Origin: Isoetes taiwanensis
Taxonomy: Eukaryota > Streptophyta > Lycopodiopsida > Isoetales > Isoetaceae
Assembly (NCBI GenBank): GCA_021234155.1
Contig: JAJEKV010000026.1
Span: 310,001-374,000, forward strand
DNA length: 64,000 nucleotides
Reading direction: 5' to 3'
How positions within the stretch are numbered: position 1 is the first letter of the stretch; each line of letters opens with the position of its first letter. Both the position numbers and the translations under genes were made by a program. Below, in pieces: positions 2,152 through 58,928 of the stretch. The notes below the pieces were generated by a model that was not told the origin of the DNA, did not search any database, and was given only the letters and a program-made list of their open reading frames with translations.

Positions 2152-5100
2152 CAACTGTCAAAACTTTGGAAGAGCAGTCTCCATGCAAAAGTAAAAAATC
2201 ATCCCTGCTCATTGCAAATGATAGCACAATGTGGCAAACTTTTAGGCAGAGCATGAGTTACTTCCCGTGCATGTGGTGCAGACAGCCACCTGACCAACTC
2301 TACACATATTGGCAATGTGAAGTAGTGCAGCAAATCTGGAAACAAGGCATTAGAATGATTGAAGCCCCCCACATCCAAAGTTGATTTCTTAGAATGATTG
2401 AAACCCATCACGTAGTAAGATCAAATTACATAGAAGAAAGATGGGTTTAGTGTTTTCTTCGATTTTACCTCCATCATCGAGTCGAACTGTGCCTCTAAAA
2501 ATCAAACAACCACATACATGTGGGGCTCGTATCGCCGGCTTCTTTCCCTTTCTTAGAGCGAATCATTTCATTCAAGTTTAGTTTCGTAGATCTACTTTGT
2601 GAAAACCGAGCTTTGAACTGATTCGCGGAACGATTGCTCGGTTCTCACCCAGAGATGTTAATTAGAGATGGCCCTTTTTTGGAGAGCTTCAAATCTACTG
2701 GAGTTATGGAGTTGGAGCTTCTTTATTGTAGTAGTTAAAAAGAATGTAATGACATTGTACTCATACATGCGACTAGTTGGGGTGTCATGCATTGCTTTTC
2801 TGTTAATATATAACTTGTATGTAGTGCCGATAAGAAAACTGAAGCAAAAGCGTGAAGACACTAGAAGGATTGTTGCATACTAGAAATGTGAATATCGTTT
2901 CTCAGAACAACGTTGTACGGATCACAAGAAGGAAGGTATTGTCTATTGGTCTTTTCTATTAACATCTCTTATCTTTGCAGGTTGATCTAAAAGCTTTTGG
3001 AAACTGGGAGGACATATGATGATGAGAAGGTTGGAATTTAGGAATTTAGTCTTGTATACATTTTCTGGCATCAATAGATTTCTCTCTATAAAATAGTAAC
3101 CCTTTTGCTAGTTAATTTTGCAATCCAAATTATATGAACTATGCCTTCTTTTAGGAGGTCATCATACCCTACTATGGCAGAGAATGCAAATTTGAGAGAG
3201 CAAATAGAAGTACCATTAAAAAGATGTCGTTGGCTTGAGAGGTGCATCTGGCAGAGATCAGTCATGCTATGTATATTCTTCAAGCAGAGTTAGACATGAA
3301 GATCGCTGAAGTCCAGATTATGTAAAATACAATTAACCATGTTGGAAGCTCCGCTGTTGCTATCCCGCTCACTACCATAGTGCCGATCTACCTTGCACCT
3401 GCTTTAACATTTTCTAGGGTCTTGTGTTCCTCGTATGTCTATTCGAGTAGGATGCTTGGAAAAGCCCATCAAATGCTTGGAAGCTTAAGAAAGATGGTAG
3501 ATGAATATCCAAACCAAGTTTTTTATGAAGTGATATGGTTAACAATGTATAGTGAGATCTCTTATTTAATGAATGATATGAAAGGTTGCTTCAAGCTTGC
3601 AATAAGACTTCAGTTTTTGCAAGGGATATTGATATGGATAAGGAAGATCATGTTCTAACATACTAGATTTGTAAAAGAAATGATGATTCTTTTATGGTGA
3701 TTCACTGGTGTCTACAATTGTGTTTGGAACAAAGTCGAAATGATAGCAAGACCATCTTCCCTAAAGATTAGAAAGGAAGATCTTGGCAGCCAAGCTCATA
3801 TTTTCTTAATAAAATGAGTGCTTGTAGAGGCATGTGCATGTGCAGCCCAATGGCTTGAAAAGGTAAATGATTCTTCTCATAGTATTCTAATTGCTGCCAA
3901 ATAAATCTAAATACACAACAACAAACCCAACTCACCTATTTTGCTCTGCACCAACCGAAACCCTGCTCCATCACATAATAAAACCTCCAGGTCTTCACCA
4001 TGGACCCTGCCACCAGACCTTCCTCGCTGCTAATCGAACCTAAGCTAACATGAATTGGTAGAAATTGGAGACCCATGTATACATAGAGGGCAAATAGAAG
4101 CTTCAACGATGCATTACAAATACCAGAAAACCTCTGAGACAATTTTACTAAACGAAGGGTAAGCAAAGCTGCAGAGAAAGGATCGCCAAACTCCGAGGAG
4201 GCAAACTCCGGCAGACAATTACTTGGGTTTTCTGATTTCTCTGGCCCTAGGATTCGAAATTACAGAATCGGACGGGTCAAAATGATTATAGCTGACGTGG
4301 CAGGACATGTGGCATAGCTAGAATCGCAGGAAAGTGGGCAGCTCGGGTTAGGCAACCCTGCTAAAAAAATACAAATACTAGTAGCTTCCCCTATCTAACT
4401 CATATAATTGCTATTGGCAAGATGCCTTATAAATTTCGTAGTGACACGTTTGCTTTTTCGGATATTCTGTGTTTCGGTGGGGAAAAAATAGCATATTTCA
4501 AACTGATAAAAAAAAAATCTGCACACAAACCGAAAAATATATGCCACGTACTATTTTTTTTCCCCTTCCAATCGCTTATTTCTTTGCTTTCTGTTTTGTG
4601 GCAAGACAGAGCACCGCCGCTGTCTGCGGTTGATTCTTGCAGCAGGGCAATCGCCCACTTTGCAATTGATTTTGCCTCTACAATCGGGTGCCAGTAGTTT
4701 GCCGTGTCCGACTTCCACTGCATCTTCTGGCGCCATCCACCATATACCCATAGCTCGCGCATTTAAACTAGGGTTGCTAAGGGCAAGGATTGTAGCAAGC
4801 TGCTTCAACAACATACAAGAAGCAAGATTCGTACTGTATGCTTCCTTTCTTGAGCTTCCTTAATATTGTATGCTCCCTTCGTTGAGCTTTCTTGATACGT
4901 TTTCGATTAGGGCTTCCTTGATATTGTACGCTGTTAAGGGAAAAGAAACAATGCCCAAGAAAGGCCCAACTGGTTTGCTTCCTATTCCCTGCACCCTGCA
5001 TCTGGAGATGGCCCACAACGCCCTGCACTATTTACCAGCACCTGGATATATACGCTGCAACAACCCTGTACTCCAAATGCCCAGATTATCCTACTTGATA

Positions 5101-12740: not shown

Positions 12741-14006
12741 ATGGAGGAAGCATGTGGAGACCTTGAGTGCTTTGTGGGAACCAATATAGTGCTTTTGATC
12801 TTAGCAAAGCTTGATCTGCATAGTATGTTTAAGGCACGCTGTGTTTGCAAATCGTGGTATGATCTAGTTTTATCTCAGCAGTTTGTAGCAATTTGGAGTC
12901 AATTGCTTGAAGATGAAGGCGGCGATGCGTGGGGTGTAGTGCGAGAAAGGACTCAAGCCCCAAAGAATCCCAATGAAGATAATCCCAATGAAGATATAGA
13001 CTGTTATGACCACAACTTAACCAAAGCATCACACACCCAACTTTGGCGTCTTAAGCAGCAAAGGAGAAAGAGGTATTTGTCTTGTCATTGCCCATTTGGC
13101 CCTTATGATACCACCTTGCGCCCCCTCTGGGCCTACTCCTCCAATGGCCTGGTCTGTGCTAAGCTTACAGAGGATACAGAATGTTGCACATTCATTGTTG
13201 GAAACCCTATCACAAATCAGTGGAAGACGTTGCCTCCAGCGCCCTCCTGTTTTCGAGATGATTTTCGTCTTGCCTACCTTCCCATGGCTTTTGACTATGA
13301 CCTGAAAAATTGCAGCTATAGTCTTTTGTTGTACTGCCCTCGAAGCATCGATGCAGTAGCACAGTATGATTCCCAACTTGATACATGGCAAATTGGACCA
13401 GGTTTTGATTATGATGACCAGCCTGTAATTGATGATGCAAGAGTGCTGTTCAAATGTAGCCTTTTTGATCCTCTAATGATGGGGTGCCCAGTTGCAGCGT
13501 ATGACGCTGCCTGCATGGCTTGGTACCATGTTACCCTTCCTAGTGTTTCCAATGTTATTGAATTTGCCAATGACGAACCCACGGGGTGCCCAGATGTCTG
13601 CTTACTTGGCATGTTCAAACATCACAAGATGGGCCTCATTGTTCCCCTGGTATATGGTACTTATGATGAACACTTGGGATTTGGAGTATGGAGTTTGGTA
13701 GTGGAAGATAGAAGGTGGAATCCCTTGGCACGTTTGACCGCGAAGAATGCATTTGGGGACAATTGGTGTGTTGATGATGACACTGACTTCAAAGTGCAAT
13801 TAGTTGGAGATTGGCTCATATTCTCTTCTTGGTACAAGAGCTACACTTTTGGAACACTTCCACCTTTTGCTTACAACTTGAAGACCTCCACATGGTGCTC
13901 TTTTCTTAAATCATCAATGCAACCTGCACCACAAGATGAAAAAAAATGTCTTCTTGATTTTGAATGCTGCTATGCCTTCTTGCCCAATTTGGCGGCTCGA
14001 CCGTAG
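12741..14006 (+). CDS. F-box protein with F-box-associated (kelch-like) domain
   Basis: Encodes 421 aa in one uninterrupted exon. Residues about 11-50 form the F-box (FVGTNIVLLILAKLDLHSMF then RCVCKSWYDLV), which docks on SKP1 in an SCF ubiquitin ligase. Residues about 135-172 show the plant F-box-associated signature SSNGLVC...VGNPITNQWKTLPP, the substrate-binding beta-propeller region. A further repeat-like hydrophobic pattern runs to the C terminus. The ATG at 12,741 was chosen because it sits just before the F-box; an in-frame extension 33 bp upstream begins only with GTG. The length is typical of plant F-box/kelch proteins. Substrate and pathway are unknown. A 250-bp piece is duplicated at 18,608. 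I infer it is functional because the frame is clean amid decayed surroundings. Confidence 0.88.
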   Translation: MEEACGDLECFVGTNIVLLILAKLDLHSMFKARCVCKSWYDLVLSQQFVAIWSQLLEDEGGDAWGVVRERTQAPKNPNEDNPNEDIDCYDHNLTKASHTQLWRLKQQRRKRYLSCHCPFGPYDTTLRPLWAYSSNGLVCAKLTEDTECCTFIVGNPITNQWKTLPPAPSCFRDDFRLAYLPMAFDYDLKNCSYSLLLYCPRSIDAVAQYDSQLDTWQIGPGFDYDDQPVIDDARVLFKCSLFDPLMMGCPVAAYDAACMAWYHVTLPSVSNVIEFANDEPTGCPDVCLLGMFKHHKMGLIVPLVYGTYDEHLGFGVWSLVVEDRRWNPLARLTAKNAFGDNWCVDDDTDFKVQLVGDWLIFSSWYKSYTFGTLPPFAYNLKTSTWCSFLKSSMQPAPQDEKKCLLDFECCYAFLPNLAARP

Positions 14007-18607: not shown

Positions 18608-18860
18608 ATATCACAACAGTTTGTAGCAATTTGGAGTCAATTTCTTGAAGATGAAGAAGGCGATGCTTGGGGTGTAGTGCGAGAAAGGACTCAAGCCCCA
18701 ACGAATCCCAATGAAGATAATCCCAATGAAGATATAGACTGTTATGACCACAACTTAACCAAAGCATCACACACCCAACTTTGGCGTCTTAAGCAGCAAA
18801 GGAGAAAGAGGTATTTGTCTTGTCATTGCCCATTTGGCCCTTATGATACCACCTTGCGCC
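18608..18860 (+). pseudogene. F-box gene fragment
   Basis: Copies 12,871-13,122 of the F-box gene at roughly 95% identity by eye. The frame carries NPNEDIDCYDHNLTKASHTQ as in the parent, then diverges after ACCTTGCGCC and hits a stop two codons later. It lacks both the F-box and the substrate-binding domain. Its 5' neighbour is the parent's 3' flank, so the order is that of a tandem duplication that later lost most of the second gene. Confidence 0.85.
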
Positions 18861-38456: not shown

Positions 38457-41388
<2,932 letters not shown>

Positions 41389-41888
41389 GATACTAAGATC
41401 TGATTCTAGGCACGGAAAGAAGGGAATAGAGGCTCCTTGGAAGCGCCGGAGTTGGGAAAGAGGCAGCACGGCAAGGCGGCGAGGATATGGCGCCTAGGGT
41501 TCCGGCAGCCTAGAGCAAGGCGGAAGCTTGGAACCGTCGTATTGAGCGCAGAGCTAGGCCCTCAATCGGGCGGCGTATAGGGTAGACGGGCTTATGACGT
41601 GCCCTGACGGGTTTGACGCCTTCTTGCCCTTCTCCATTAATTCCCCAACGGTCCATGGTTGCCTTATGGCCTTTGGGCCCGTTGTGGCCCATTTACAACC
41701 ATTGGATCCCTTCCTATTGGACTCTAACCTTTGATGCCCATAATGTATGGGAATATTCTGAAGATCAAGATATCATGTCCCCTCGGATTTGTAACCCTAA
41801 AATTAGAACTACAAACCGTAGAAAATACATCATGAACCTACAATGAAGAATACATAATGGTTAACACAGCCGACGGGATCTGAACCTA
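41389..41888 (-). promoter_or_regulatory. Putative UAP56 leader and promoter region
   Basis: About 500 bp between the helicase start codon and the left terminal repeat of the Rep-like element. It is GC-richer near the gene. No certain TATA box or motif can be named; the call rests on position only. Confidence 0.4.
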
Positions 41889-41949
41889 TTATGTGGGCGA
41901 AATTTGAAATGGTATTTTTATAACATAAGGTTTTCAATGGTTAGTATGG
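41889..41949 (+). repeat. Left direct terminal repeat of the Rep-like element
   Basis: Matches 44,230-44,290 in the same orientation. The first 31 bases are identical; differences cluster in the centre (ATAACATAAGG against TGTAAGGTAAGG). Homology stops after GGTTAGTATGG on the right side. Confidence 0.9.
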
Positions 41950-42234
41950 GTATTCGTGAGGGTAGGAAATGACGGTGGCACTATGGATTCGAAATTTTGG
42001 AATCTAGAGCTGGCATCTGTTCCTGGGTTGGTCGGAACTGGGAGTTCTCACGTGGTCTGTGCCAACAGAAATGGCGATGGCGGCGCCGAGTATGTGTCTT
42101 GGCTGTGTGATTGTTTCTGTTTTTGGGCCATAGGATAAGGAGGGGTCGTTTTGGTTGTTCGGAAGCCCATCTCCAATCTTGTGCAAGCAGATTTCTGTCA
42201 CAAGTAAGCCGGGTCTGTTGCTTTTATTTTGTTT

Positions 42235-42837
42235 ATGATGTCTTTGAAGAGAGCAGCGAGGAAAGGGAAGGGTGTTGCTTGCTCTGTGCCTCCTTCTCTG
42301 AGTTGTTTAAAAATCGGCTCCTCTAATTCTGGAGAGCCTAAGACTGGGGGACGTGCTGCTGGTTGTTCTCTTGGTCGAGATTGGAGTGCCATAGGTGTCA
42401 GTGTGACCTTGGGTTTGTCTAGGCAAGATGTGCCCATGAGTTTTTATGATGCTCTTGTTGGGTTTTGCAATCGAAGGTGTTTGGCTGGAGCTGTGGCCAT
42501 GGAGCGTGGTGCGAGTGTTGATCACTTGCATTGCCAGGCTGTTTTTAGAGCTCGGTTCAAGAGCCCCAGGGCCATGAATGATGCCATAAAAAGGGATTTC
42601 AATTGGGTTTCAAAGTCATCGGGTGTGATTTTGGTATGCAAAGCCCTTAAAAACACTTGCCTTCATTGTTTTGAAGGCATGATTGGGTACTGTATGAAGG
42701 ATATTGAAAAAGTCCATTATGTTTGTCATCTCCATAATGTGAGTGAGGCTGCTATTGAGAAAGGAAAAGATCTGTATTTGATATGGGGAGTTGGTGATAC
42801 GAAAAATCTTGTTGTGCTTGACAATAAAACCTCTTGA
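42235..42837 (+). CDS. Rep-like HUH endonuclease (transposase), N-terminal catalytic domain
   Basis: Encodes 200 aa from the ATG at 42,235. The Rep/HUH signature appears in canonical order: a motif-I-like beta strand IGVSVTLGL (residues 53-61), the metal-binding H-L-H in DHLHCQ (H97, H99), and the tyrosine motif Y-C-M-K (Y152, K155). Such enzymes nick one DNA strand and stay joined to the 5' end through the Tyr, driving rolling-circle or single-strand transposition. The N terminus is basic (KRAARKGKG), useful for DNA binding. No helicase (GxxxxGKS) follows, unlike most circular ssDNA virus Reps and Helitrons. The frame ends at TGA in an overlap with the next open frame; a 1-nt slip would fuse them into about 346 aa. 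An undamaged catalytic triad suggests recent activity or function. Confidence 0.72.
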   Translation: MMSLKRAARKGKGVACSVPPSLSCLKIGSSNSGEPKTGGRAAGCSLGRDWSAIGVSVTLGLSRQDVPMSFYDALVGFCNRRCLAGAVAMERGASVDHLHCQAVFRARFKSPRAMNDAIKRDFNWVSKSSGVILVCKALKNTCLHCFEGMIGYCMKDIEKVHYVCHLHNVSEAAIEKGKDLYLIWGVGDTKNLVVLDNKTS

Positions 42838-43274
42838 ATCGAACTGCACATTTTGTGAATTGCCATGGGAATCATAGGTTGACTGCTAGTCTGTTGTATA
42901 CCTTGGCTAGGATGATTCGATCTGGAAAATTTACCTTGTCTAGTTCATGGATCATCCCTTCAAACACGACTCATATCAATGAACATCGTGTTCGGGCTGT
43001 GTGGAGAGTGTTGTTCAACCCTAGTCACTGCATGCCGTCGGATATGAGGACGATTCTATTTGGTTTGCCAGCAGGCTTTGTGCCTGTGGAGAGGAATGGG
43101 CCTGGGCGCAGGCGTTATTGGGATGATGCTATTCTTGCTGATAAGGAAGACAATAATTTTGAGGATATACATGATGCTTCTTATAGTGCAGATAGCCCTG
43201 ATGTCGTGATACTTGAGCCTGGCGTAGATTATATCCTTGTGCACAAGGGTGATCGTATCATGGTTGTTGGCTGA
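42834..43274 (+). pseudogene. Probable C-terminal part of the Rep-like protein (-1 frame)
   Basis: A 146-codon open frame starts with TTG inside the stop of the preceding frame and has no ATG until 42,912, so it is best seen as the continuation of the Rep-like protein after a frameshift (natural or a base error). Visible: a conserved-looking block with NCHGNHRLTASLLYTLARM, then W-I-I-P and VRAVWRVLFNPS, an acidic stretch, and an end in VHKGDRIMVVG before two stops. No named domain is recognised. Programmed frameshifting, splicing or a single sequence error could each explain the break. Confidence 0.5.
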
Positions 43275-43352
43275 TGAACTTGCTTGGGGGTTGGTTGTAC
43301 AATTGAGTTTCTTTGTTTTCATGCTTTTGTTTGTTGTATAGTTGCAGGAGTC

Positions 43353-43763
43353 ATGGAGACTGATCCGGAACTAGTTGTTGGCGTGGACGAGCCTGTTGCG
43401 TCCTTGCCTGAATCTTTCATTTCATCTGCTGTAGATGCATCCCATCCCGACCCTGTTGTGTATTCAGCTGAACCAGAAGCAGCATTCTCCACTCAGAAGT
43501 TTGTTAATAACGTTATTCAGGTTGGGACTAAGGCGCATAGGGTTGCGGCATCACTGTGTTTGCTTAGGCGGCAGCTTAGAGCATTCTATATGTCCATTGA
43601 CAGTGCTATATCTGTTGTGGAGTGGGAGCACTTGGGTGTGCCTGTTTCTGAATTGCACATATTGCGTTCTCATATGAGCCTTGCAAGAGCATTACTTGTG
43701 CAGGAAATACGCCAATTAGATGCGGTCATAAGGCATGCGCAAAGTGGTTCGGCTATGAACTAG
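43353..43763 (+). CDS. Hypothetical protein in the Rep-like element
   Basis: Encodes 136 aa from an ATG that follows a splice-acceptor-like TATAGTTGCAG at 43,337-43,347. It is in the same frame as the Rep C-terminal segment, after two stops, so it may be a 3' exon or a second gene. The first 50 residues are acidic and Pro/Ser-rich (METDPELVVGVDEPV). The remainder looks alpha-helical with regularly spaced Leu and Arg (CLLRRQLRAFYMSIDSAI). No domain is recognised. Its position between the Rep gene and the terminal hairpin suggests an accessory DNA-binding or oligomerising protein, which is inference only. Confidence 0.4.
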   Translation: METDPELVVGVDEPVASLPESFISSAVDASHPDPVVYSAEPEAAFSTQKFVNNVIQVGTKAHRVAASLCLLRRQLRAFYMSIDSAISVVEWEHLGVPVSELHILRSHMSLARALLVQEIRQLDAVIRHAQSGSAMN

Positions 43764-44126
43764 TTTATTTTTATGTTTATGTTTTGCTGGTTTGTCATTT
43801 CTATATGAAGTTCATGGACCTTGATCTGGATTTGTGTTATAGTGCTTGCAGGAGCACCTTGGTGTTGGGGAGCTCAACTTCGTTCACCTGATTGAGTGTC
43901 CTTCAACATTGTAAAGTCTGTTTTGAGTTATTAATGTATAGGTGTGGTTATGCTGGTTATGGGAAATGGTTTCTGATAATTGTGAGTAAACTGAATTTGG
44001 TTAAGGGCAATTATGTTATGAGGTGAGTTGTTATTGATGTTTCATTATGTAAATGGGACTAACTTGTTTGATGTCTTAGTGGGCTTCAGGCCCTGGGCAT
44101 ATTGTGGGATGCCTGCTATGTTTGGA

Positions 44127-44168
44127 TGAGCATGGGAATTTATACTGGGGTTCGACTCCCCAGGCTCA
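44127..44168 (+). promoter_or_regulatory. Two-part hairpin near the right end of the Rep-like element
   Basis: Inner stem CTGGGG/CCCCAG (44,145-44,150 with 44,158-44,163) closes the 7-nt loop TTCGACT. An outer stem TGAGC/GCTCA (44,127-44,131 with 44,164-44,168) encloses it. It resembles a tRNA T-arm but no cloverleaf surrounds it. HUH enzymes commonly recognise hairpins next to their nick sites, so this is a candidate recognition structure. Confidence 0.6.
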
Positions 44169-44229
44169 TTGTAATTTATATGGTGGCTGCTGCTTCAATT
44201 ATGTCTGAACGAAATTATGGTTATGGGAT

Positions 44230-44290
44230 TTATGTGGGCGAAATTTGAAATGGTATTTTTTGTAAGGTAAGGTTTTGAATGGTTAGTATG
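44230..44290 (+). repeat. Right direct terminal repeat of the Rep-like element
   Basis: Second copy of the 60-bp repeat. It ends immediately before GCTCT, the target duplication of the chromovirus insertion. Confidence 0.9.
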
Positions 44291-44295
44291 GCTCT

Positions 44296-45894
44296 TGTGA
44301 CGTTCCACGTATTTATACGGTCTACTATACGGGACACGTACAAATACAAGCACGTCACTCCCTAAAGGTACGCTACCATGGGGGTATGGGAACCTAATTG
44401 CAACCTAGGGGGTTACCTTACAAAGGATTAAATTAGCTATGCTAATTTAACACATTATTAATAATAACCTATAACCTAGGAAATTAGGATAATTACCAAT
44501 TGGGAAGGCGCCACCTGCCCCAATCGATTGGGCAGCATGGGGGTTGCCAAGTTTGGATGCCAACTTGACCCCTATCCCTGGGATTGACTCAAGAAGATCG
44601 ACCAAGGAAGGCCCGGGGTGGCGCCATCAACCACTGCAGAGAACCCCCATACCGGTCGTCCTGTGAAGCCACGGTGAATCTTCAACCGCCGAGGAGATGG
44701 AAGGCCCCATGGGAATGAGTCCGGCCGAGAATTCAGGTAGGTGGCTATGTGAATTCTAGTTAACACTTGGTTGTGTCCGTCTTTCTCTGTTCTCTTTGTA
44801 ATTCAATCATAGAAACTAATCCTTGATTGTACAAACAAGTTCTCTTTATATTCAATTACGGTTCTTTTCTCGAAAGGATGGATTGTTAGTTCTTTGTTTG
44901 ATCGACTCACGAAGCGGGGGATTACGGGGGTAGAGGCCTCAGAACAGCGTATAGTAGTATGCTCCTAGATAGCCTCAAAGTCCCATTAAATGCGGCACGT
45001 GCACAAGAACCCACCGGGTCCTAGATGCTATGGTGCGGCTTAGCACCGGACAAGGAACACACAAGTGGTGACATGAGGGGTGGGGTCTTGCATGAGCATA
45101 CAAGGCTCCCGAGACTCCTACTGATGGGCTAGGCGATGGCCGGTCACGTGAGGGGCGGGTATGGGTCCGACACTCCACTGGGTGGGAAGGTGTGATCCGT
45201 ATGGAGCACCTTGCACTTTGAGTAGATTTAGGGTGAGTAAGTTGGATGCGGGATGCGGGGGGGCCCGATGCGCACGTATTCTCTAGCTCACCCATGGAAC
45301 CTTGTGATTACGGAAGGGGACTTCCCAGGCCGCCTCATCGGACCAGGCGTCATGAACACGGGTAGGCTCGGGAGGGTGATGCACGAGTTTTGCGTCTCAG
45401 GAAGGCTATAGCAAAGCCATAGCATGAATTGACCCATCGCAAAGTGTGCGGGAGGGGCGGATGGAGTGGACAACCCTAGCCAATGTTCTATGCCCGATAG
45501 CGCCATGCCAAGACTCGGTCTGGCTGATCTCTTGAGGCCCAGCCGTCGGTCGATCCCACGAGAGTCCGAGGAGGGGGTAGAACACAGGGGTTTGGGTGTT
45601 TTTCTTAGGATTATTTTGCATATTCTATGCCGTTGGTATATTGGATGGATCGCCACCCTTCATTGGTGGTTATTTATGTATATTCGATTTGTGTGCTAAC
45701 CCTTGTATTCATGCTTCCGACGTAGGAGTCCCATTGAAGGCGTGGGCGAATGACCCCTTCGTGTCCTTCTTGGGCCTCATTTCATCGATGGCCCGAACGG
45801 AGGGAGGGCCACGCTCATGGTGAGATGATCGCCATGGGAGGGGAAAGTCCCGTATGTATCGTCAGAGGGTCGTATATATGCAGGGCGTCCGCGG
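44296..45894 (+). repeat. 5' LTR of the chromovirus (about 1.6 kb)
   Basis: Pairs with 55,814-57,417. Begins TGTGACGTTCCACG. Its 3' end is altered to GGGCGTCCGCGG, where the partner has GGAGCGTCACA, so the exact last base is uncertain by a few positions. Confidence 0.9.
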
Positions 45895-45907
45895 TGGTAT
45901 CGAGCCG
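45895..45907 (+). promoter_or_regulatory. Primer-binding site
   Basis: TGGTATCGAGCCG directly after the 5' LTR closely matches the plant initiator-methionine tRNA primer site, which primes minus-strand DNA synthesis. Confidence 0.85.
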
Positions 45908-48900
45908 TGATTTTGGTTGTTGAAATCATAGCGGCCAAACACTAACTTCGTAGTATACGGTAGTTAGGAGGAGGCTAAGTCAATGTGTCGTTAGTTCTCT
46001 TTGTTGTTTGGTTTGGTGTTAGGTTAAGTTAAGGAATTGTAGCTTTGAAGTGGAGGGGCCAAGATTGGAGGCCTAACAGGTGCCGATGGGTAACTCAAAT
46101 GACAAAGATGATGGCTCCATTGGATTGGGCGCACTTGAATTACCCTAAAACAATCAACTCGGCGAAAAAATAGTCAAAGGCGGGCCCAAAACGAATTGGG
46201 CGCCGCTTGCTTTTTGTCGCTTTGCGATCAAGTTAAAAGCGCCCGAAATCTTTGTCGGCGCCCGACCGTCGGACTTCGAGTCAACGGACCCGCCAGTCAA
46301 CTTCGGCGCCGCTTGCATTTCGGCGACACCGGTCGGCGAGAACCCCGTATAATGCCATCGGTACCGGTATGCGATTGTATGTGGTGGCGTATTTCCGTGA
46401 GTATATTTTTTTTAATAATAAAATTTTGAAGTTAATAAGGAAAAAATTTGAAATTTTAAAAGTTAATTGGCCGTTTAGCAAACCATTTTACGTCATTTGC
46501 TTTTGCTTCCGCCTCCAAACGCTTTGAGCAGCCCTCGCCATCGCCCGGACGGACCGCCCTTGATCTTTGCGCCCTTGTGCCTTGTGCCTCCTAAGCCCCC
46601 TCGCCATCCTCTTAGCCGCCCGCCCTCACTATTCCCTATGGCTATTACCAAGAGCGCTCGGACCCGTCCACCATGAGCATCGTGGAGATCACGCCATGAT
46701 TGCTAAGCACATGGCTCTTGACCCAGCCCTCATCGACATCTTGTTGGATGAGCTGGTCAATAGGTTTGAGAACAATGATAGGATTCCATATCCCGTCTAT
46801 CACTTCTCGAGCCATTCCTCATCCATTTGAACCCACGCTGACTCCCTATACCCTTGTTGAGCAAGCGATATGGTGATGATGCTCATCAAATTTTATCCTC
46901 GAACAAGAAGGCCATACGGAGGAGGAAGATGTCGGGGATCTGAGGTGGCCAGGATTAGGGGTTTTGCGGGGAAGGCGACCCGACCGGGAAATTGGCGGTA
47001 CGATACACGCCGGCGGGGTAGGGAGTCTGGGGTACCTCGGGAGGCGGCTTTGCCGTCATCGATGGCGAAACCATTGAGGTTCCCCATACCAATGGCATGA
47101 GGGTTCCAATGGCTTTGTATGGGGAGAAATCCCCGACATTAGCATAGACTATATCGACCACTATTCGGATAGATATGGGTCTGCATGACCACAAAAGGTA
47201 CCAATGAACTTAATCGGCGTGTCATGACCCAACTTTTTGCTCGGATCCAAGAAGACACGAGGAGAGGCTTCGGGGAGGCCTTGAGAAGTTGGAGCAAGAG
47301 GAGCGGGACCGACAAGATCAGCGGGACCAACAGGGAGGAGGTGCATCTAGGAGTGGCTCGAACCCAAAACCCACGCATCCGACCGTTAAGCTCCGAAGGA
47401 AGGGAGTTGCTCATAAGGCCGGCAGTCAATACAAGGATAAGTTAAAGACTGTCGGGGCTTTTGGGAAGAAGACCAGCTCCGACCGGAGGCAGCAGAGAGT
47501 GGATAACTCCGGCGGTTCTTTGGGGCTAAGGCAGTGCCGACATCATCGGGGCCCTCGGCGCTGGCGAAAGCCTCCTCATCGGTTCCGGCCGATGCAGTGG
47601 CATTCTGGGGAGATCCGCCAAATTTCAGAAGTCCACGGACCTTCGATCGAGGGAAAGCTGCCTTTTTCAGAGGCTGGTACGGGGAGATCGCCGCGACAAT
47701 TTAAGACCCGATCTCCGTTTCCGGACCTTTGCAATTTTGGCGCTCCAAGATTTCTTGAAGCCTACTTGGTAGCACTTTTTGGTGATGCCAACCTTTGCGC
47801 TATCCCATAAAGAGGGTCACCATAATGCCTAAGGATTTGGCCCTCGCCCGGTAGGATACGGGGAGCAACCTTAGTCTACTGGGGATCCGCATTTGTATAT
47901 ATTTTTTGTGATAATTAATAAAGAAGCTTTTATTTTGAATTAAAAGTTTAATGTTTTTTTTTTTTTCATGATAAATTTAAAATAAAATCGACATCAGCTT
48001 TATTAAGAGGGTTTAAAAGGGGATTTGTAGGGTTATTTTAGCGGCTTCTTTTCCTCTCTTCTCCCTTCTAGCGCCATGGTGCCGCCACGGAAGACCTTCT
48101 GCTGGTACCTTGATGGAGAGAAATGGGATCCACAGGTTCCCTTCGACTGCTTTGCAGCCTTTGCTATGCCAACGCATAGACCTCCTTGCCAACATGCGGC
48201 GGCATCCAGGACTATCCGGATTCCTTGACTTTTACATGGAGGAAATGCTTCCTCTGTGTATTCCTCTAGGGGATCCTCCCCACTTGTATTTGGAGCGGGA
48301 GATAGTTCGGCGGATGCTAGGCGGGGACACACATGCCTATGGCGTCTTGAAGGGGAAACTCCGATGGGGTAAACACCTACCTAGGTGGTCCAAAGATCGG
48401 GGCGGCGATATCGGAAGCTACTTTCGCAGCTCTAGCCATCCTCATGGACCAATACGTTGAGGATGAAACCTTCCGGTGCAGAGAAGGGCAAGCTGCCGAA
48501 TCCCTCGAGGAGGGGGATGGCGAGCATATAGGAATGGGCGACTTTGCCCGTTGGAAAAGCTAGCGAGGAGCTACCACCAGCCCGTGACCAATCTATAGGC
48601 TTGTCGGGGTTAGGCGGCCTTCGATTATTTATCACCGAGGGCAGGAATACCTTCTCTTGGATGATATTATCGGGCGTATCGTAGTGGCGGATTTAGACGC
48701 AAAGCGCAAGGACCATGTACTTTATGAGCTTGCGGAGTATTGTATGGATGATTTCATCGACTTCACTTCTACCGAAGCTTCTGAGGAGGTGCACCATTGC
48801 TTTGCAGATTCCGTCGGGGAGACCCTAGAGCGGCGGAGACTCTATTACGTCTTAGCGACTTGCGTGATGCAGGAACCGGCTTAAGAAGCACGCACCGGAT

Positions 48901-50600
48901 GCCTTCGGCTATGGGACCTCCGTCCCAAATATCAATATGGTTGAGGTTCCCTCGGCTCCGGATGATGAGGGTGAAGATTTATATCATAACCTGCGCATAA
49001 GAAGGAGGAGCAAGAGGAGCTCAAGGAGGAAGAAGTCCCCATGGACTTGGATAAGGAAGTGGCGCATCATCGAAACTCCCGCAAGGGAAGGTGCTCGGTA
49101 ACCACCTCACCCGTTTCTTTTTGTCGGCCTTCAAATACGGGCAAGTTCTCTTCATAGCGGGACTTAGGGCCGAGGTGAAGCTTCATGGTGGGCCCTCCGC
49201 GCACTTTCTACACTCGCCCGACCACAAGAAGCTTCCCTATCGTGCGTTTACGTATGTACTTTCGTCTGACGGGATCTTGCCCTTACGACCTTGGGCGAGG
49301 ATATTTTGCCTTGGATGGGCATGAAGCTCCTCACGGCAGCCCCATTGGCCGTTGCCTATCCACCGGAGGTTGCATCATTCTTGTGACCCGCCACCGTGGA
49401 CCACTGGGGTAGCTTCTGGCTGCGACACCGCCAGCCTCCACCACCTCCTAGGGCTAAGGATAAAGAGGCAGGGCCTAGTTCCTGAACTAAGGGTGCTATA
49501 TAAATTTTGTTATGTATATATATATACACATGTAGTTATGAGATTTTGGGATTGGCAATTGTTTAAACCATCTGAAAAATGTGTACCTTATCTACTTATT
49601 AAATACAAAGTTTTCTTGATGAGTATAACTAAATTGTTTTTTATGACATCCTCTTCCAAAGCATTAAAGTTTAGGGTATAGTGGAATTACAAAATGTTCT
49701 CTATTCACTCCAACTATATTTGAGAGGAAACCATTTGGGAGTATGAGGAAAGAATCAGACATGGTTAGGAGAGGCGATCCGGGGCGCCCGACCGGGACTA
49801 TGGCGAGAGATATGGTGAATATCAGTGGGAGGAAGGCTATGAAACCAGAACCCCGCCGCCACGGGGGAACTCGACCACGACAAAGGGGCTGGAGATAGTT
49901 AACATCCTCGGGGATCGAGCTTTCGAGGATCACGAAGATGACCACGCGGTCGTACACAGGACCTCTTGGAATATGACCGAGTGCACGAAGCCTTCGAGGG
50001 CCAGCGACCATCTTTGGCAACTCTTTTTATGCGATGCGAAGGCTCTTTAACCTTCGATTATCAGCCCAACATGGGAGTACCAAGCAATCATTGTCCAAGC
50101 ACGGGCACGCTATAAACTTCGTCCGAAGCATGCGGAGAGTACCACTTCTGCGATCGTACCCCATACCGCCAACCCTTAGGCTTGGTCTCTTACGTTATGT
50201 TTTCTTTGTTCTTTGTTCTTTTATTTGTGCGGATAGAATTTTAAGAGTTTTCAGCTTTGTATCATACCTACTTTCGTCTTAACCCATGTACCAATATACT
50301 TGTTTTGTACTTTCGACTTCAATGAAATAAAAACATTGTTTTTGTTTGTATATTCTTTTGATCTCAATTATTTTAAAAGGGATTATACATTAGTATAAAA
50401 TGCTTATATATTCATGAATGCTCCCTATAGGCGATTATGCGTAGCTTGGCTTGGCAAACACCCTCCAGCGCCCGGTGAAATCTCCCCCTGAGCGAGGGAA
50501 TTGATGTTAATGAAAAGGCAACTTCGGTGAGTTACGGGCTTATGTGTTGCATACCAATCCCCGCCACATACTTTCGGGAGGACGGACGGAATTACCTCGC
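45908..50600 (+). other. Long leader of the chromovirus with unknown ORF remnants
   Basis: About 4.7 kb lies between the primer-binding site and gag, much longer than a usual leader. Plus-strand peptide-like runs occur near 47,185-47,445, 48,076-48,460 (opening MVPPRKTFCWYLDGEKW, then a shifted frame with GLSGFLDFYMEEMLPL), 48,657-48,884 (IIGRIVVADLDAKRKDHVLY) and 49,091-49,330. They share the broken style of gag-pol and the same strand. They could be an additional element gene or captured host sequence. No family is recognised. Confidence 0.5.
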
Positions 50601-50618
50601 GACCATTGAGTCCACACA

Positions 50619-51625
50619 ATGACCATCTCCTCCCGAGCTAGCCGTACACATGCGAGAGGAGGACTCATGCTAAGCGTCATCGAAGTTCCTCTAAGGATAG
50701 CGCCCGCTTCCTCACATTCAACCACTTACGGTTCTTGGGGTCCTCGCTATCGAGGCGGTGATCATTCAAGGCGTAAGGATAAGGAATACCGAAAAACCGT
50801 TGACCACGACCATCACTAGTATATGGAAGAACATGAAGGCTGGCTCGGTTTGATGGGAAATCAGAGGGAGGCTTGAATGCGGAATCTTGGTTGGGCGAAA
50901 TGAAGGAATTGGGGAAGTCCTATGGAATGGCAGAGAAAGAAATATCTGAGGGAAGGTCGCCACCACCGAACCTTTACCGGGCTGCTCGTATTTGGTGGAA
51001 GGGTTACGCGAGAGCTAAACACACGGATAGGAGCAGATGCAAGTTCGGGAAGTTTGCTAAGGCTTTTAAATCTCATTACGTGCCTTCGGCGCACAAATGC
51101 CATGATTCGGACCTTCTGAGGTTGGAGCGAAAAAGGCATGTCCGTGCGAGGCCTACACCGATGAATTCATGCGTTTGAGGTTGTATGTGCGAGGGAATGA
51201 ATGAGAAAAAAAGCGATGAGAGGGCTACATTGAAGGGTTGGCCCCATCTATTAAGCGAATGGTCAAGGCTATCGACCCAAAGTCGATGCTTGAGGGAAGC
51301 TAAGGCATTAAGCCTTGAGGAAGACACGCCAAAGAACCGGTATCTGCGACACGCTCCTTACTCATGACCCACGGCCGTCCACACCTTACAAACCCCGTTC
51401 GCCAAGTCAGGGGCCCTCTCAAACACAATTCTTATGGCCGCCCGGGAGAAGAAAGTAAGCCTTTAGCACGCTGGGATAAGCGAGAACAATCTTTGGCAAG
51501 GAAATCTGGGGCCTCTTACGGTCCATTCCTAAAGAGGCGGAAGAACAGCTCAGTAGGGGATAAGGCATGCTACGGTGCATGAGGCACGGACACTTCATGC
51601 GAGAATTGTCCGTGACGTCCGCCAG
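50619..51625 (+). pseudogene. Chromovirus gag
   Basis: Capsid region read through frameshifts: YRAARIWWKGYARAKH and FGKFAKAFKSHYVP are typical of plant gypsy Gag. An Arg-rich N-terminal stretch near 50,740-50,800 precedes it. A CCHC zinc knuckle C-x2-C-x4-H-x4-(C) is seen near 51,565-51,610 (CMRHGHFMRE), with the last Cys lost at a frameshift. Gag would package element RNA. At least three frameshifts make it non-functional as written. Confidence 0.8.
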
Positions 51626-51799
51626 ATCGCTCAACCGGCCATGGCCGACTGGATTGGGAAGATTTGGAGTCAATCTTCTTTGCGGAAGACGAGGCTCGAA
51701 AGTACATTCATGGTGCGTCTCATATTCTTGCCGCTATAGAAGCAGAACTTGGCTGAAAAGTCGACCTCTGTTATTTCTACAATAGGCCAAGTAGGCGAG

Positions 51800-53645
51800 T
51801 AAGCCCTTCATAATTTTGATGGACACGGGTAGTACGCATAATTTTGCTTCTCCTAGAATGGCCCAGTGCTACGCATTTGGAAACATTGAGATCCGACCTA
51901 AGCCGGTCACATTAGCTAGCGGTAAGATCGGACACACTCATGGCGTAGTATTAACCTTAAAATGCACCGGCTGCCGGGTGCACCGGTTGCCTTGGGTGCG
52001 AGTTAATGGACATTGGCAAATATGATCTTATTGTGGGAATGGAGTTTTTAAGCGTCTGCTGGGGCCCACATAGGCTGCGGAGAAAGCGGGGAGGTCACCT
52101 TCAACGCCGCTAATGGAGCACGTGTGACAATAAAAGGTGATTCATTACACTCAGCTATGCGGGCAATGTCAATAAAGCGACTAGGAAAAGCTATGCGAGG
52201 AATGAACTTCTTTGCCTCATTAAACTTGCTTCCATTGAGTCGGACTCCAAACAGCGACAAGTAATCGGCGCTTTACCATCGGACATTCTTGCCCTTCTTG
52301 AGAATTTAGCGATCTTTTTCGGATGAGATCCACAAGCTTCCTCCTTTTAGAGGGGTGGAATGTGAGATAACTCTTGAAGCAGGGTACTAAGCCTACCGGC
52401 AAAGCCCGTCAGAATGAGTCCTCAGGAGTTAAGCGAGCTTAAGAAACAGCGACTACAAGAGTTCTTGAATTTGGGGTTTATTAGGCCTAGTGTTTCACCA
52501 TTTGGCTCCTATTCTTTTTGTCAAGAAGAAGGATGGCTCCTTAAGGATGTGTATTGATTATAGGCAACTCAATAAGCATACCATCAAGAATCGCTATGCT
52601 TTGCCTAGAGGCGAGATGATCTTATGGACCCGGTTGCAAGGAGCAAAATATTTCTCAAAGATTGATTTGCGCTCCGGGTACCATCGGATAAGGATTAAGG
52701 AAGAGGACATCCATAAGTGCGCTTTTAGGTACCGGATATGGGCATTACGAATTCTTTTGTCATGCCTTTTGGATTGACCAGCATACCTAGCGTTTATGCG
52801 GTTGATGAATGACATCTTCGCCAATACTTGGATGACTTTGTTGTCATTTTCTTTGATGACATTCTCATCTATAGTAAAACCTTGCGACAACATGAACAAC
52901 ATCTTGAATAGCTTTGCAAAAGCTAAAGGCGCCATCGACTCTTAGCCAAGTTCTCTAAATGCAAGTTAAGCCACTCAGGGTAGACTATTTGGGGCATATT
53001 ATCTCGTGAGAAGGAATTGCTCTGAGACCCGGCTAAGATAGAAGCGGTAAAAGGATTGGCCCATTCCGGCTAATGTTTGAGAGGTCAGGAGTTTCTTGGG
53101 ACTCATGAGGATATTATCGGAAATTTGTTAAGGATTTTGCAACAATTGCCGCACCTCTTACTAATCTCACAAGACATGAGAAAGTAAAGGTTGGATGGAA
53201 CATTGGAAAACAAAAGTCCAAGTAAAACTTTCAGAAACTCAAGGATGCTTTAACATACGCACCGGTCCTTACCTTGCACGATCCGGGAAAAGGATAAATC
53301 GGTAGCCACCGATGCGAGTAAGATAGCTACCTAGGTGGTGTCTTAATGCGGGGAGGGAGAGTTAATTCAAAGAAGATGAAGCGATGCGAGCAGCGATATC
53401 CTACCATGATCGGGGAGTTGCTAGCGGTTATGCGTGCTCTCGTATTTGGAGACACTACCTTCTTGGTAGAAGATTTCGGTTGGATACGGATCATCGAGTC
53501 TCAGCTATCTATCCACCCACCAAGTCTAAATCTCCGTCGTGAAGATGGATGGAATTCCTCGAGGAATATGACTTGAGATTGTATACAAGCGAGGGAAAGC
53601 ACAATGTGGTTGCGGATGCTTTGTCACGTCATCCCTTTATAACCC
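51800..53645 (+). pseudogene. Chromovirus protease, reverse transcriptase and RNase H
   Basis: The protease active site is MDTGSTHNF (about 51,820), a retroviral-type aspartic protease. The reverse transcriptase follows with [20 protein letters not shown] (about 52,507), [13 protein letters not shown] (about 52,660) and the catalytic FFDDILIYSK (about 52,848). RNase H ends with KHNVVADALSRHPF (about 53,598). Frameshifts separate most motifs. One example is TTTGGCTCCT near 52,500, where an SPFGAPIL frame needs two more bases at a GC-GC site. All catalytic residues that can be read are conserved, so the breakage looks recent or technical. Confidence 0.88.
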
Positions 53646-53859
53646 GCACCCATTGTAATGCCATTTCCACACTCACCGGCGAGTTTGGGAAGCGGATAGA
53701 AACAGACCTTGGCCCTGAGATCCCGAATTACGTAATATTTGGGAAAGTTTGGGTAAGGAAGCCGTCTGCAGATAGAGAGCGCGTGAAGCATTAGTTCATA
53801 TAAGAAGGAGGGCAATTTATTATATTACAAAGATAAGTTGTGTGTTCAATGACTTGAGG

Positions 53860-55150
53860 GGTGCGAAAGTTGATTCTCCATGACACACACAGCAGCCCTA
53901 TAGCAGGACATGCGGGTTTTATGAAAACTTACTTTTAAGATCCGCTCCAGCTATTTTTGGCCTTCCATGAAGAAGGATATTGCTAGGTACATCAAAGCGA
54001 TTGTCGGGTTTGTCGACAAACCAAAGGCGGAACAATTAAGAGTTCTGGGGAGTTGCAACCTTTGGATGTGTGCCCAGCGCCAAGTGGGAAGTCATAACCA
54101 TGGATTTCATTGTGGGGCTTCCATTACTCTCGTGGGTATGATGCCTTAATGGTCGTGGTCGACAAATTATCAAAGATGGCTCACTTCACGCCATGTCGCA
54201 CCACGGACACCGCCTTTGACACCGCCTTGCTCTTTGCAAAGGAAATTTTTCAAGTTGCACGGGATCTAGAAAGTAATTGTATCGGATAGGGATCCTAAGT
54301 TTGTCGGTGCATTACGGAAGGATTTCTTCGCCACCATCCGGACCAAGCTTGCTATGAGTACGACCTACCATCCTCAGACGGATGGTCAAACGAGCGTGTC
54401 AATCGTATTATCGAAGATATGCTAAGAAGCTATGTATGGAGTAAAGCAGTCACAATGGGCGATTATATTTACTTGGTGGAATTTGCCTACAACGATTGCA
54501 AAGCGGGGAGTCTTCTAGAATGTCTCCTTTCATGATAAATTATGGCTATCAATGTCTTACTCGGACACATGGCATAATCTGTTTCTAAAGTGGAGGTCTC
54601 TCAACAACTCCTTCTAGAAATCACGGGCCTTGGTGGAAGAAGTTGGGGGTTACTTATTGGCGCGCGTAGTCGTCGAGAAGAGTCTAGCGGATAAAGCAGA
54701 ACCCACGAATCTTCAGTGGGCGAATCGGTTTGGCTTAAAATCAAAAGTAAAACAAGCCAAGCTTAAAATTGGTAGCTGTAAAAGGCGGCACCGGATGGGG
54801 CGTTCGGGATGCTTGAGCGTGTGGGAGAAACAGGCATATCGCTTGGACTTGCCACCCGGCTTGAAGATCCACAAGGTCTTTCCGTGAGTCTTACGAAGCA
54901 ACACACCCACGATCAGGAGGAGGTTTTGGATACCCCTACCCTCCTAGAAATGGTGAAGAGCGACTGGAAATAGTGCGAAGCTCTTCTTGATCGAGCTTAC
55001 AAGCAGACCGAAGGACTCAAATGTTGCAATACTTGGTCAAGTGGAAGCACTTACCGGTTGAAGATGCTACGGGTGATGAAGATAGACCTTGAGAAGCACT
55101 ATCCAGGACTTCATCTGCGGGAATCTCAAGGCCGCACCATCAACGATGCT
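53860..55150 (+). pseudogene. Chromovirus integrase and chromodomain
   Basis: The integrase zinc region has GHAGFMKT (about 53,908). The core contains VVVDKLSKMAHF (first Asp, about 54,155), SDRDPKF (second Asp, about 54,282) and DGQT...RVN (third residue, Glu, lost to a one-base deletion near 54,390). At about 55,022 a chromodomain reads QYLVKWKHLPVEDAT, which would tether integration to marked chromatin. No long intact frame remains. Confidence 0.85.
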
Positions 55151-55800
55151 ATCAACCCAGCTCCGTGGTAAGCTTGAAGGCTTGATTGTAGAGAGTCATG
55201 TTTTAGAAGGGTAGGCGCATCGTATATGATAGTAATAACCGATGATGAGATCACCTTCGTGTTCTCTAGGGCGTAGTGTATTGTTGATGTTGACATGACC
55301 GCGAATTGCTAGGAAGGCATCTAGTAAATGGCTGCGTTAGTTAACGGCTATAAGAGGAATTGCAAGCCGTACACATGATAGATTCCCTTCTAGATATTTT
55401 TTCTTTTATTTCTAGGGGGTGGTCCCTGCAACCACAATTTAATCATACTATTAACCTCCGGGTATATGGTTGTGTGCAGGCCAATGAACAAGTCGTCACC
55501 TGCATTGTATAGAGGGTTCTTTGATGACCCAACTTGTCCGTATTGGTTTTGTCTACATGTGTGAATTTTGTTGTCGAATGTTTTAAATGGGACTCAGGTC
55601 CTAAACTCCTTTGATCATAAGTTTGTATCGAGAGCACCCGGTGCTAGTACTTTGATATTTTAACTTCAATGTATTACTGTCCAAATTACTATAATCTCAA
55701 CGTATTAATGATATATTCTTAACTTCATTCTCTAATTCAGTGCTTTACGTATATGTATTCAATTAGCTAACCCTAATCTTTGAGGGACAGCATTATTTTT

Positions 55801-55813
55801 AAGGAGGGGAGAA
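55801..55813 (+). promoter_or_regulatory. Polypurine tract
   Basis: AAGGAGGGGAGAA directly before the 3' LTR primes plus-strand synthesis. Confidence 0.9.
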
Positions 55814-57417
55814 TGTGGCGTTCCACGTATTTATACGGTCTACTATACGGGACACGTACAAATACAAAGCACGTCACTCCCTAAAGATGCGCTACCATGG
55901 GGTATGGGAACCTAATTGCAACCTAGGGGTTACCTTACAAAGGATTAAATTAGCTATGCTAATTTAACACATTATTAATAATAACCTATAACCTAGGAAA
56001 TTAGGATAATTACCAATTGGGAAGAAGCCACCACCCTTGTCGATTAGGCAGCATGGGGGTTGCCAAGTTTGGATGCCAACTTGACCCCTATCCACGGGAT
56101 TGACTCACGAAGATCGACCAAGGAAGGCCGGGAGCTGGCGCCATCAACCACTGCCGCAGAGAACCCCCATACCGGTCGTCCCTGTGAAGCCACACGGTGA
56201 ATCTTCAACCGCCGAGGAGATGGAGGCCCCATGGGAATGAGTCCGGCCGAATTGGTAGGTGGCTATGTGAATTCTAGTTAACACTTGGTTGTGTCCGTCT
56301 TTCTCTGTTCTCTTTGTAATTCAATCATAGAAACTAACCCTTGATTGTACAAACAAGTTCTCTTTATATTCAATTACGGTTCTTACTCGAAAGGATGGAT
56401 TGTTAGTTCTTTGTTTTGATCTCGACGAAGCGGGGGGATTACGGGGGTAGAGGCCTCGAACCGGCGTATAGTAGTATGCTCCTAGATAGCTGTAAAGTCC
56501 CATTAAATGCGGCACTGTGCACAAGAACCCAGGGGTCCTAGATGCTTATGGTGCGGCTTAGCACCGGACAAGGAACACACGGTGGTGACATGAGGGGTGG
56601 GGTCTTGCATGAGCATACAAGGCTCCGAGACTCCTGATGGGCTAGGCGATGGCAGGGTCCGTAGAGGGCGGGTATGGGTCCGACACTCCACAGGTGGGAA
56701 GGTGTGATCCGGTATGGAGCACCTTGCACTTTGAGTAGATTTAGGGTGAGTAAGTTGGTATGCGGATGGGGGGGCTGATGCGGCACGTATTCTCTAGCTC
56801 ACCCATGGAACCACTTGTGATTCGGAAGGGGGCGCTTCCACAGGCACGCCTCATCGGACCCAGGTCATGAACCCGAGTAGGCTCGGAGGGTGATGCCCGA
56901 AGTTTTGCGTCTCAGGAAGGCTATAGCAAAGCCATAGCATGAATTGACCCATCGCAAAGTGTGCACGGGGAGGGGGGCGGATGGAGTGGACAACCCTAGC
57001 CAATGTTCTATGCCAGATAGCGCCATGCCAAGACTTCGGTCTGGCCGATCTCTTGAGGCCCGGCCGTCGGTCGATCCCACGAGAGTGGAGAGGGGTAGAA
57101 CACGGGGTTTGGGTGTTTTTCTTAGGATTAGCTGCATATTCTATGCCGTTGGTATATTGGATGGATGCGCCACCCTTCGTGGTGGTTATTTATGTATATT
57201 CGTGCTGTGTGCTAACCCTTGTATTCATGCTTCCGCGACGTAGGAGTCCCATTGAAGGCGTGGGCCGAATGACCCCTTCGTGTCCTTCTTCGGGCCTCAT
57301 TTCATCGATGGCCCGAACCAGACGGAGGGCCCTGCTCATGGTGAGATGATCGCCATGGGAGGGGAAAGTCCCCGTATGTATACGTCCGAGGGTCGTATAT
57401 ATTCTGGGAGCGTCACA
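55814..57417 (+). repeat. 3' LTR of the chromovirus (1,604 bp)
   Basis: Starts TGTGGCG and ends CGTCACA. Followed by the target duplication GCTCT. It differs from the 5' LTR by scattered small indels, many at CG dinucleotides. Confidence 0.93.
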
Positions 57418-57422
57418 GCTCT

Positions 57423-58928
57423 AAGGGGTAAGTCAAATACAATGGATTTTACCACATCTTGACTTGAATTCAAGGGCTGAAATTTGATAAGATGGAATAT
57501 GTTGTGCAATATACTTGCATCTAATGTTCCAAAACAATTTTAATACACTCCAAATGATAATACACGCCAAGCGAAATTACATGAATATCTTGAGTACGAC
57601 TACTGAATACTGTATACGTGCCTGCTTAGCTTTCCATTTGTTGACTTTGAGCATTTCCCAACCAACTTTAGAAAACTGACACTGCAAAAATCAAAGGAAA
57701 ACAAAGTGCAAAACCAAAATTGAAATAGATATGTCCATTAATGAGACAGACATCTCCAATTTCAAAAACTACCAAACAATAAATTAAGTAATTGTGTCCA
57801 GCACCATGCTGCCACAAACAACTTAAACAACAAGCTGCTATCGAGAATAGCACCAAACTAAAAACAAAATAAACCAAAGGCATATGAAAAGAGTTCCAGG
57901 TGTCCAGTATACCAAAGTGCCCATTTATCCTGCTAGTCCACAACATGTCATGATGCCTCATATTCCGATGCATGACTGCCCTGCAGCGGCTTGAAGCTGC
58001 TCTAATGATAATAGCTTATGAAGTTGTAAGTCTATGAGACCCTGCATCCATACAAGTCAGCCAAAGATCTGCGCAACCGCTTATATTGCGCATAGTGTCA
58101 CTAAGCTGCTCCACAAAAGCAGACAACCAAACTATGTTAAGAAGCTCTTCAACTTCCAAAGTTTAAAGATCTGGCTCAAATGTAACATGGAGATCAATAT
58201 CAACATCTGATTGATAGGATGATCAGGATCCATGGGGTTGGAACAGCAAAACAATAGAATATTCAAGACGGGGCCCAAATAGAATGAGGATGCTCAATTC
58301 TAGCAATATCCTCAACATTGAGATCCTAACATGAGAAGGAGGAGCCATAGGCTCATTAAAACCACCTGAAAAATCATCCTCAAGAACATCAATCTACATC
58401 AGTAGTATAATCATCAATACTAGAAGGTTTATACTCAACTTCTGCTACATTCCTGGATGGTCTGAAAATATCAACGGAATCTCCAACATCAAATGATAGT
58501 CAATTTTACTCTCAATAATTTAAAAACAAAGGTATGTAGCCATTGAATAGAGATGATTATCCAGCCCTTCCAAGTGTACTCCATTTTTTTCATACATTAC
58601 AATGAGTTCCAATTCCCTTTCTATGCAGTCAAAGGTACCTTTCACTTAACAAGCTGTAACCTGCAGCTGCCTTCTATGTTCAATTCCATTATATATGAAG
58701 TTTTTTTGTAAGGGTTGTATATTGTGAGCTCGTAGATGCGACGTTGCAGGTCAGTTGTAGGGTCTGCTCCTGTGATGATATCTTGGGTTTTTGATAGATT
58801 GAATTGTCCAGCATATTTGCTTAGAATGGGTTTACTTGGGCTTTAAGTGCAACAATAACAGGGGGTAGTGTACTGAAAGCATTGTTTGATACCTATTGTC
58901 TTAACTAATTAACATTGTTTGGCAATAG
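57423..58928. other. Region to the right of the chromovirus, no clear gene
   Basis: AT-rich. Short minus-strand peptide-like runs at about 58,150-58,530 (for example RNVAEVEYKPSSIDDYTTDV) look like a decayed gene end, possibly transposase-derived, but stops are frequent. No repeat or RNA gene is recognised. Confidence 0.4.

Follow-up and report, generated by a model that had tools for sequence, protein, structure and literature searches.

A Replitron of an abundant family, probably no longer mobile, in the genome of the lycophyte Isoetes taiwanensis

The window analysed here, a 64,000-nucleotide stretch of the Isoetes taiwanensis genome (assembly GCA_021234155.1, contig JAJEKV010000026.1, positions 310,001 to 374,000), carries what is probably an immobile copy of an abundant Replitron family, and we give this reading, together with the nicking and strand-displacement mechanism and the splicing that we infer for it, a probability of about 75%. 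Replitrons are said to have been first described in 2023 by Craig in PNAS. An earlier sequence-only reading of this DNA had proposed a Rep-encoding HUH transposon of the Replitron type, free of a helicase and bracketed by direct repeats, in a plant nuclear genome. Protein-family and genome searches bear out the transposase type, the plant nuclear setting and membership of a mobile, multicopy family whose 5' end is sharply defined, but they move the 3' end of the element. Judged by the sequence of its transposase, the element is a Replitron and a structural variant of a known transposon class (Table 1).

Table 1. Features of the Replitron copy and of the retroelement nested within it, in window positions.
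Feature	Position	Strand	Remarks
DR1, 5'-terminal 61-bp direct repeat, element start	41889..41949	+	family 5' border, in differing flanks
Putative 5' splice donor GTAAGC	42204..42209	+	some 30 bp before the start codon of Rep
ORF1, HUH endonuclease domain of Rep	42235..42837	+	200 aa; Pfam PF21859 match
ORF2, C-terminal part of Rep	42828..43274	+	in another frame than ORF1 in the window copy
Putative 3' splice acceptor, pyrimidine-rich TTGCAG/G	43330..43347	+	5 bp before the ORF3 ATG
ORF3, 136-aa companion protein	43353..43763	+	acidic N-terminus and predicted two-helix hairpin
DR2, second 61-bp direct repeat, subterminal	44230..44290	+	conserved sequence continues beyond it in other copies
GCTCT, left target-site duplication of the LTR element (Replitron sequence)	44291..44295	+	
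Degenerate 13.1-kb LTR retroelement inside the Replitron	44296..57417	.	ends TGTGACG...CGTCACA
LTR pair of the nested element	about 44296-45879 and 55814-57417		paired within the window
GCTCT, right copy of the LTR element's target-site duplication	57418..57422	+	
3' tail of the Replitron	57423..57570	+	ends near ..CAAATGATAATACACG; matched in 23 of 34 loci (L009-L042)
Short hairpin remnant in the 3' tail	57432..57452	+	imperfect in the window

Assignment of the transposase rests on ORF1, which matches the Pfam family PF21859 (Replitron_HUH) with an E-value of 1.9e-20 and 73.9 bits against a cut-off of 28.5, over profile positions 1-127 of 128. The motifs previously noted in this frame are all present: a motif-I-like strand near residue 54, HLH at residues 97-99 and YCMK at 152-155. 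Among projected copies, HLH is intact in 18 of 26 and YCMK in 17 of 22. Reps of CRESS-DNA viruses and plasmids have motif I, HUH and YxxK in the same order as ORF1; the element differs from these in that no helicase family and no viral Rep profile was reported for ORF1-3 in Pfam at E<=10, where only Replitron profiles appeared, and in that PHROGs returned no match to ORF1 at E<=1. ORF2 had a single weak PHROGs match of unknown function (E=0.026), NCBIfam returned nothing for ORF1 or ORF2, and the sole PDB match to ORF1 was weak (E=0.071) and unrelated by name. Protein searches yielded no relatives of Rep, nor did scans of viral and GTDB contigs. A structure model of ORF1 computed without an alignment was useless (pLDDT 31.9), which counts against our reading.

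The C-terminal half of Rep had been thought new, and ORF2 does fall under the Pfam cut-off for PF21860 (Replitron_C; 15.3 bits, cut-off 27), but this weak match lies at the position expected for the domain, and ORF2 may be a diverged Replitron_C rather than a new domain. At the corresponding place, the same profile scores 14.2 and 13.7 bits, again under 27, in L043, a copy from a diverged subfamily, and in L044, for which PF21859 scores 74.4 and 72.2 bits, respectively. Taken jointly, the three long frames of the window copy are not reproduced by first-order Markov sequences, where a third-longest open stretch of at least 146 codons arose in 0 of 1000 (observed, 148); a single open stretch of at least 160 arose in 19 of the same 1000. 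Rep is open in subfamily copies that are 75% and 61% identical in Rep, with an uninterrupted frame of 345 aa in L043, and in the subfamily comparison both Rep and ORF3 show few non-synonymous changes and nearly saturated synonymous sites. Pooled pairwise dN/dS, from pairs that are not independent, was 0.465 for ORF1 and 0.377 for ORF2, and indels were rarer in the ORFs (10-18 bases per kb) than in non-coding controls (32-55).

The break between ORF1 and ORF2 is nearly private to the window copy. At least one extra base is present in this stretch in 23 of 24 projected rows of other copies (22 loci), the state of the window recurring only in L025, and most other copies hold ORF1 and ORF2 in one frame, some with breaks or stops of their own. 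We read the break as copy-specific decay or an assembly error; the latter is possible because the assembly is nanopore-based, according to the available portion of its description (PMC8566536), and because the LTR pair discussed below is rich in gaps. An intron at 42774-42877 spanning the break was considered and rejected, as it leaves the Pfam score about equal but most other copies read straight through.

Copies of the element were sought in the whole assembly (1,658,258,908 bases, 1110 contigs). A 72-bp query from the 5' end matched at least 40 scored places of 181 candidates. The ORF1 protein query gave 3477 first-look candidates, which are loose and not confirmed copies, and all 150 of those scored matched Rep at 61-100% identity. 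Thirty-four loci (L009-L042) were taken around hits of the 5' query and are thus selected for a recognisable 5' or 3' repeat; flanks are common to several of them (four on C1033; L029/L030, L032/L033 and L036/L040), so their ends are not all independent. Several near-complete dispersed copies, as well as internally deleted ones, have the same architecture.

The direct, rather than inverted, repeats described previously are real, extending over 61 columns with 5 differences and an identical first 31 bp. A 24-bp core, searched with up to 3 mismatches, occurs in the window only at DR1 and DR2 and had 0 matches in 100 shuffles. No inverted repeat of at least 20 nt was reported within 41000-45500; with the borders corrected, the two terminal 40-base stretches share inverted words of no more than 5 nt, and the longest inverted match of the first 200 bases to the tail is 8 nt. 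Direct words common to these 40-base ends of the window copy likewise reach 5 nt at most, and the longest lies away from the termini, the 3' terminus itself being imprecise.

Comparison of copies showed that the repeats do not bound the element at both ends, as had been claimed: the claim stands for the 5' end at 41889, but the 3' end lies beyond an LTR element, near 57570. At the 34 5' ends among loci L009-L042, homology stops at or a few bases from the initial TTATG, with A immediately before it in 32. Most of the 21 3' repeats detected in these loci are followed by conserved sequence that runs on into a tail of about 150 bp with a variable end near ACACCCCAAATGATAATACACCCC. L015 is an exception, departing about ten bases after its repeat (at 4185), and L021, L036, L040 and L041 differ just past the 3' repeat and then rejoin the tail. 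Because a nested LTR element splits the Replitron, with the conserved tail resuming on its far side, we place DR2 in a subterminal position and take 44290 as the end of DR2, not of the element, whose size without the insert is about 2.55 kb. The genome-wide repeat search that the sequence-only reading had envisaged thus reset the borders, but a single genome search with joined flanks found no empty insertion site. A word pair, GTCAAAT-7-ATTTGAC, occurs in most of 16 tails compared, with minimum-energy folds that vary between copies, and this hairpin may take part in termination. By eye, the sequence to the right of the 3' end of L018 is similar to the latter half of the 61-bp repeat and may be an older, related end lying next to the insertion. 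On the left of L042, the initial 65-80 bp of the joined-flank query match about 30 other places in the genome, and another repeat family adjoins the copy there.

The LTR retroelement inserted later than the Replitron, between DR2 and the tail. It appears Ty3-like, with a reverse-transcriptase fragment recognised by eye near 52469. Alignment of its LTRs with each other gives 121 substitutions and 34 gap events, of which 23 involve one base (49 mismatches and 62 gap openings with another aligner), and other repeats in the window have fewer gaps. The differences between the LTRs are patchily clustered and include many one-base gaps, perhaps a trace of consensus errors in the nanopore assembly.

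No target-site duplication of at least 4 bp was found for the window copy, which counts against our reading, as does the empty-site result. Among 15 copies, flank matches of at least 4 bp numbered 5 (null 2.15, P=0.04) or 6 (null 2.34, P=0.009) in comparisons chosen after inspection, and short target duplications in the family are hinted at.

The role of the long repeats can be read in two ways. Rather than nicking sites, they could be recombination partners or leftovers of tandem insertion, the ends of the element being set by its 5' terminus and its tail. Such an origin would suit the position of the 3' repeat, about 150 bp inside the element, and the two head-to-tail copies at L015, as well as L044, where no long direct repeats were found within the 3.5 kb retrieved. 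L043 has different long direct repeats of its own (184-388 and 2904-3072, with 61- and 97-bp blocks), placed differently from those of the window copy. Both L043 and L044 count in these respects against our own reading. However, the repeat pair is retained in many dispersed copies, including the internally deleted L012 and L038, which suggests that it is needed, and we consider the recombination origin rather unlikely.

Under our preferred reading, in which the repeats are recognition sites, movement would begin at DR1. In the HUH superfamily, the catalytic tyrosine cleaves single-stranded DNA and links to it through a 5' phosphotyrosine, as stated in the available part of a published account (PMC13231165). 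Coupling this chemistry with the duplicated repeat, we infer nicking at DR1 and a second cut at or beyond DR2. Rep would nick one strand at DR1 with its single tyrosine, Y152, and become covalently attached, and host enzymes would displace the strand through the element. DR2 would then serve as a second recognition copy, where cutting or re-joining of the strand would yield a single-stranded intermediate, perhaps a circle, for insertion elsewhere by a further Rep reaction. The variable 3' ends would fit a loosely specified termination past DR2.

The extra small gene reported earlier, ORF3, also withstood scrutiny. Comparisons among copies indicate that it is a real conserved gene under purifying selection that persists in two diverged subfamilies. 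Against its counterpart in L043, dN/dS is 0.10 with synonymous sites near saturation, and in L044 the C-terminal part is 66% identical, with the N-terminal part in another frame. Pooled pairwise dN/dS, again from pairs that are not independent, was 0.468 in frame versus 0.607 and 0.901 in the other two frames; the 5' leader, a non-coding control, gave 0.592 and 0.504 in two of its three frames, which counts against this measure. Read from the first ATG past the acceptor, ORF3 spans at least 130 aa in 10 of the 19 copies with a recognisable acceptor and is shorter in the other 9, some of which are themselves truncated; it is broken in L010. No significant relative was found in Pfam, NCBIfam or PDB, the one NCBIfam match being far under its cut-off (E=0.18). 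A single-sequence model of two long helices (mean pLDDT 69) gives only a hint of its fold.

Splice-like motifs flank Rep in three subfamilies and define a putative intron of about 1.14 kb that encloses the whole Rep frame. The donor GTAAG is present in 23 of 27 projected copies, 19 of them with AG/GTAAG, and altered in 4; the window copy has AA/GTAAG. The acceptor AG is kept in 16 of 20 projected copies and altered in the remaining 4. L043 and L044 have canonical donors and acceptors at the same places, though their spacer sequences differ. This pattern suggests that unspliced RNA would give Rep and spliced RNA the predicted ORF3 product, removal of the intron placing ORF3 directly behind the leader. 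Frames that run from the leader into ORF3 lack conservation, and we therefore take the ATG of ORF3 as its start codon. In L041, ORF3 is open from this ATG, but the junction is not spanned in its frame by any open stretch of more than 100 codons. L044 has no open frame of more than 100 codons across the proposed junction, which counts against the splice model, and a pattern search detected no splice site in L025 and L023b, two of the 12 copies tried. With its acidic tail and helical hairpin, the ORF3 product could assist Rep, or the replication apparatus of the host, as an accessory partner.

The acceptor could also serve a different intron. If ORF2 and ORF3 were joined by a short intron, such as 43249-43347, the product would be one longer Rep, extended at its C-terminus by helices. 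GT-AG introns of about 99 bp that keep the frame do exist at the ORF2/ORF3 boundary, the stretch 43230-43375 is free of indels in 16 of 21 projected rows, and the acceptor is conserved in 16 of 20 copies. Nevertheless, Rep ends in ..M(A/V)VG followed by a stop in both the window copy and L043, which argues for a complete protein, and L044 lacks an equivalent of the donor at 43249 but has one of the donor ahead of Rep. A fused product is unlikely in our view.

Taken as a Replitron with a separate companion gene, the element can be compared with described systems. Replitrons show target-site duplications of 2-8 bp and are known from green algae, liverworts, mosses, lycophytes and ferns. The available text of a recent review gives them a size of 0.9-4 kb and terminal direct repeats of 5-11 bp, and lists lycophytes among the hosts (PMC10741241). 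The suggestion that a land-plant copy would extend the host range therefore falls, at least by that list. Our element resembles Replitrons in its helicase-free HUH endonuclease, its size, its lycophyte host and in that no inverted repeats were found. It differs from those in the consulted portion of the review in its 61-bp repeats, the 3' one subterminal, and in a second conserved gene with splice-like signals (PMC10741241), and from a typical Replitron in a C-terminal domain that scores under the Pfam cut-off. An HUH transposase, a plant nuclear genome, the lack of inverted repeats and a short hairpin near the 3' end are shared with Helitrons, from which the element is separated by the lack of a helicase domain, a single catalytic tyrosine and direct repeats, the Helitron side of this comparison drawing partly on the same portion of the review (PMC10741241). 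The long direct repeats, of which the 3' copy is subterminal, and the conserved companion gene differ from the review's description, though we claim no priority for them. It is possible, if on balance doubtful, that they mark a distinct, massively amplified Replitron lineage with two obligate alternatively spliced products and long origin-like repeats, one of them subterminal. Were this so, ORF3 would be, to our knowledge, the first accessory protein assigned to a Replitron.

With its many dispersed copies, open Rep frames, well-marked 5' end, paired candidate recognition sites and companion protein, this family is a concrete test system, suited to the question of how a helicase-free HUH transposase moves in a plant; we know of no test of the Replitron mechanism. 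The apparent terminal repeats here are not the termini, a reminder that the ends of an element are best set from its copies in the genome.

Next to the Replitron lies a UAP56/DDX39B-like DEAD-box helicase gene, with one exon at 40252-40554 and a start exon at about 41388, both on the minus strand; the start exon had no match in PDB. Its likely start codon, placed by eye, is about 500 bp from the 5' end of the Replitron, which would sit in the putative promoter region of this gene. That neighbour and the single break in the Rep frame might recall a host gene that has been domesticated, or an inserted viral Rep, in place of a transposon. This reading is scarcely credible: the dispersed copies already contradict it, with Rep matched at all 150 scored genome places and ends common to copies in differing flanks, and neither a viral Rep profile in Pfam (E<=10) nor a PHROGs match to ORF1 (E<=1) was reported. 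A tRNA T-arm-like hairpin at 44126-44170 matched a tmRNA model with E=0.0075, below the gathering score, and was set aside as weak, since 10 of 200 shuffles fold as well. Elsewhere, the window holds a LINE reverse transcriptase and an F-box protein gene at 12744-14003 (plus strand), a stretch of which is partially duplicated (12871-13122 and 18609-18860).
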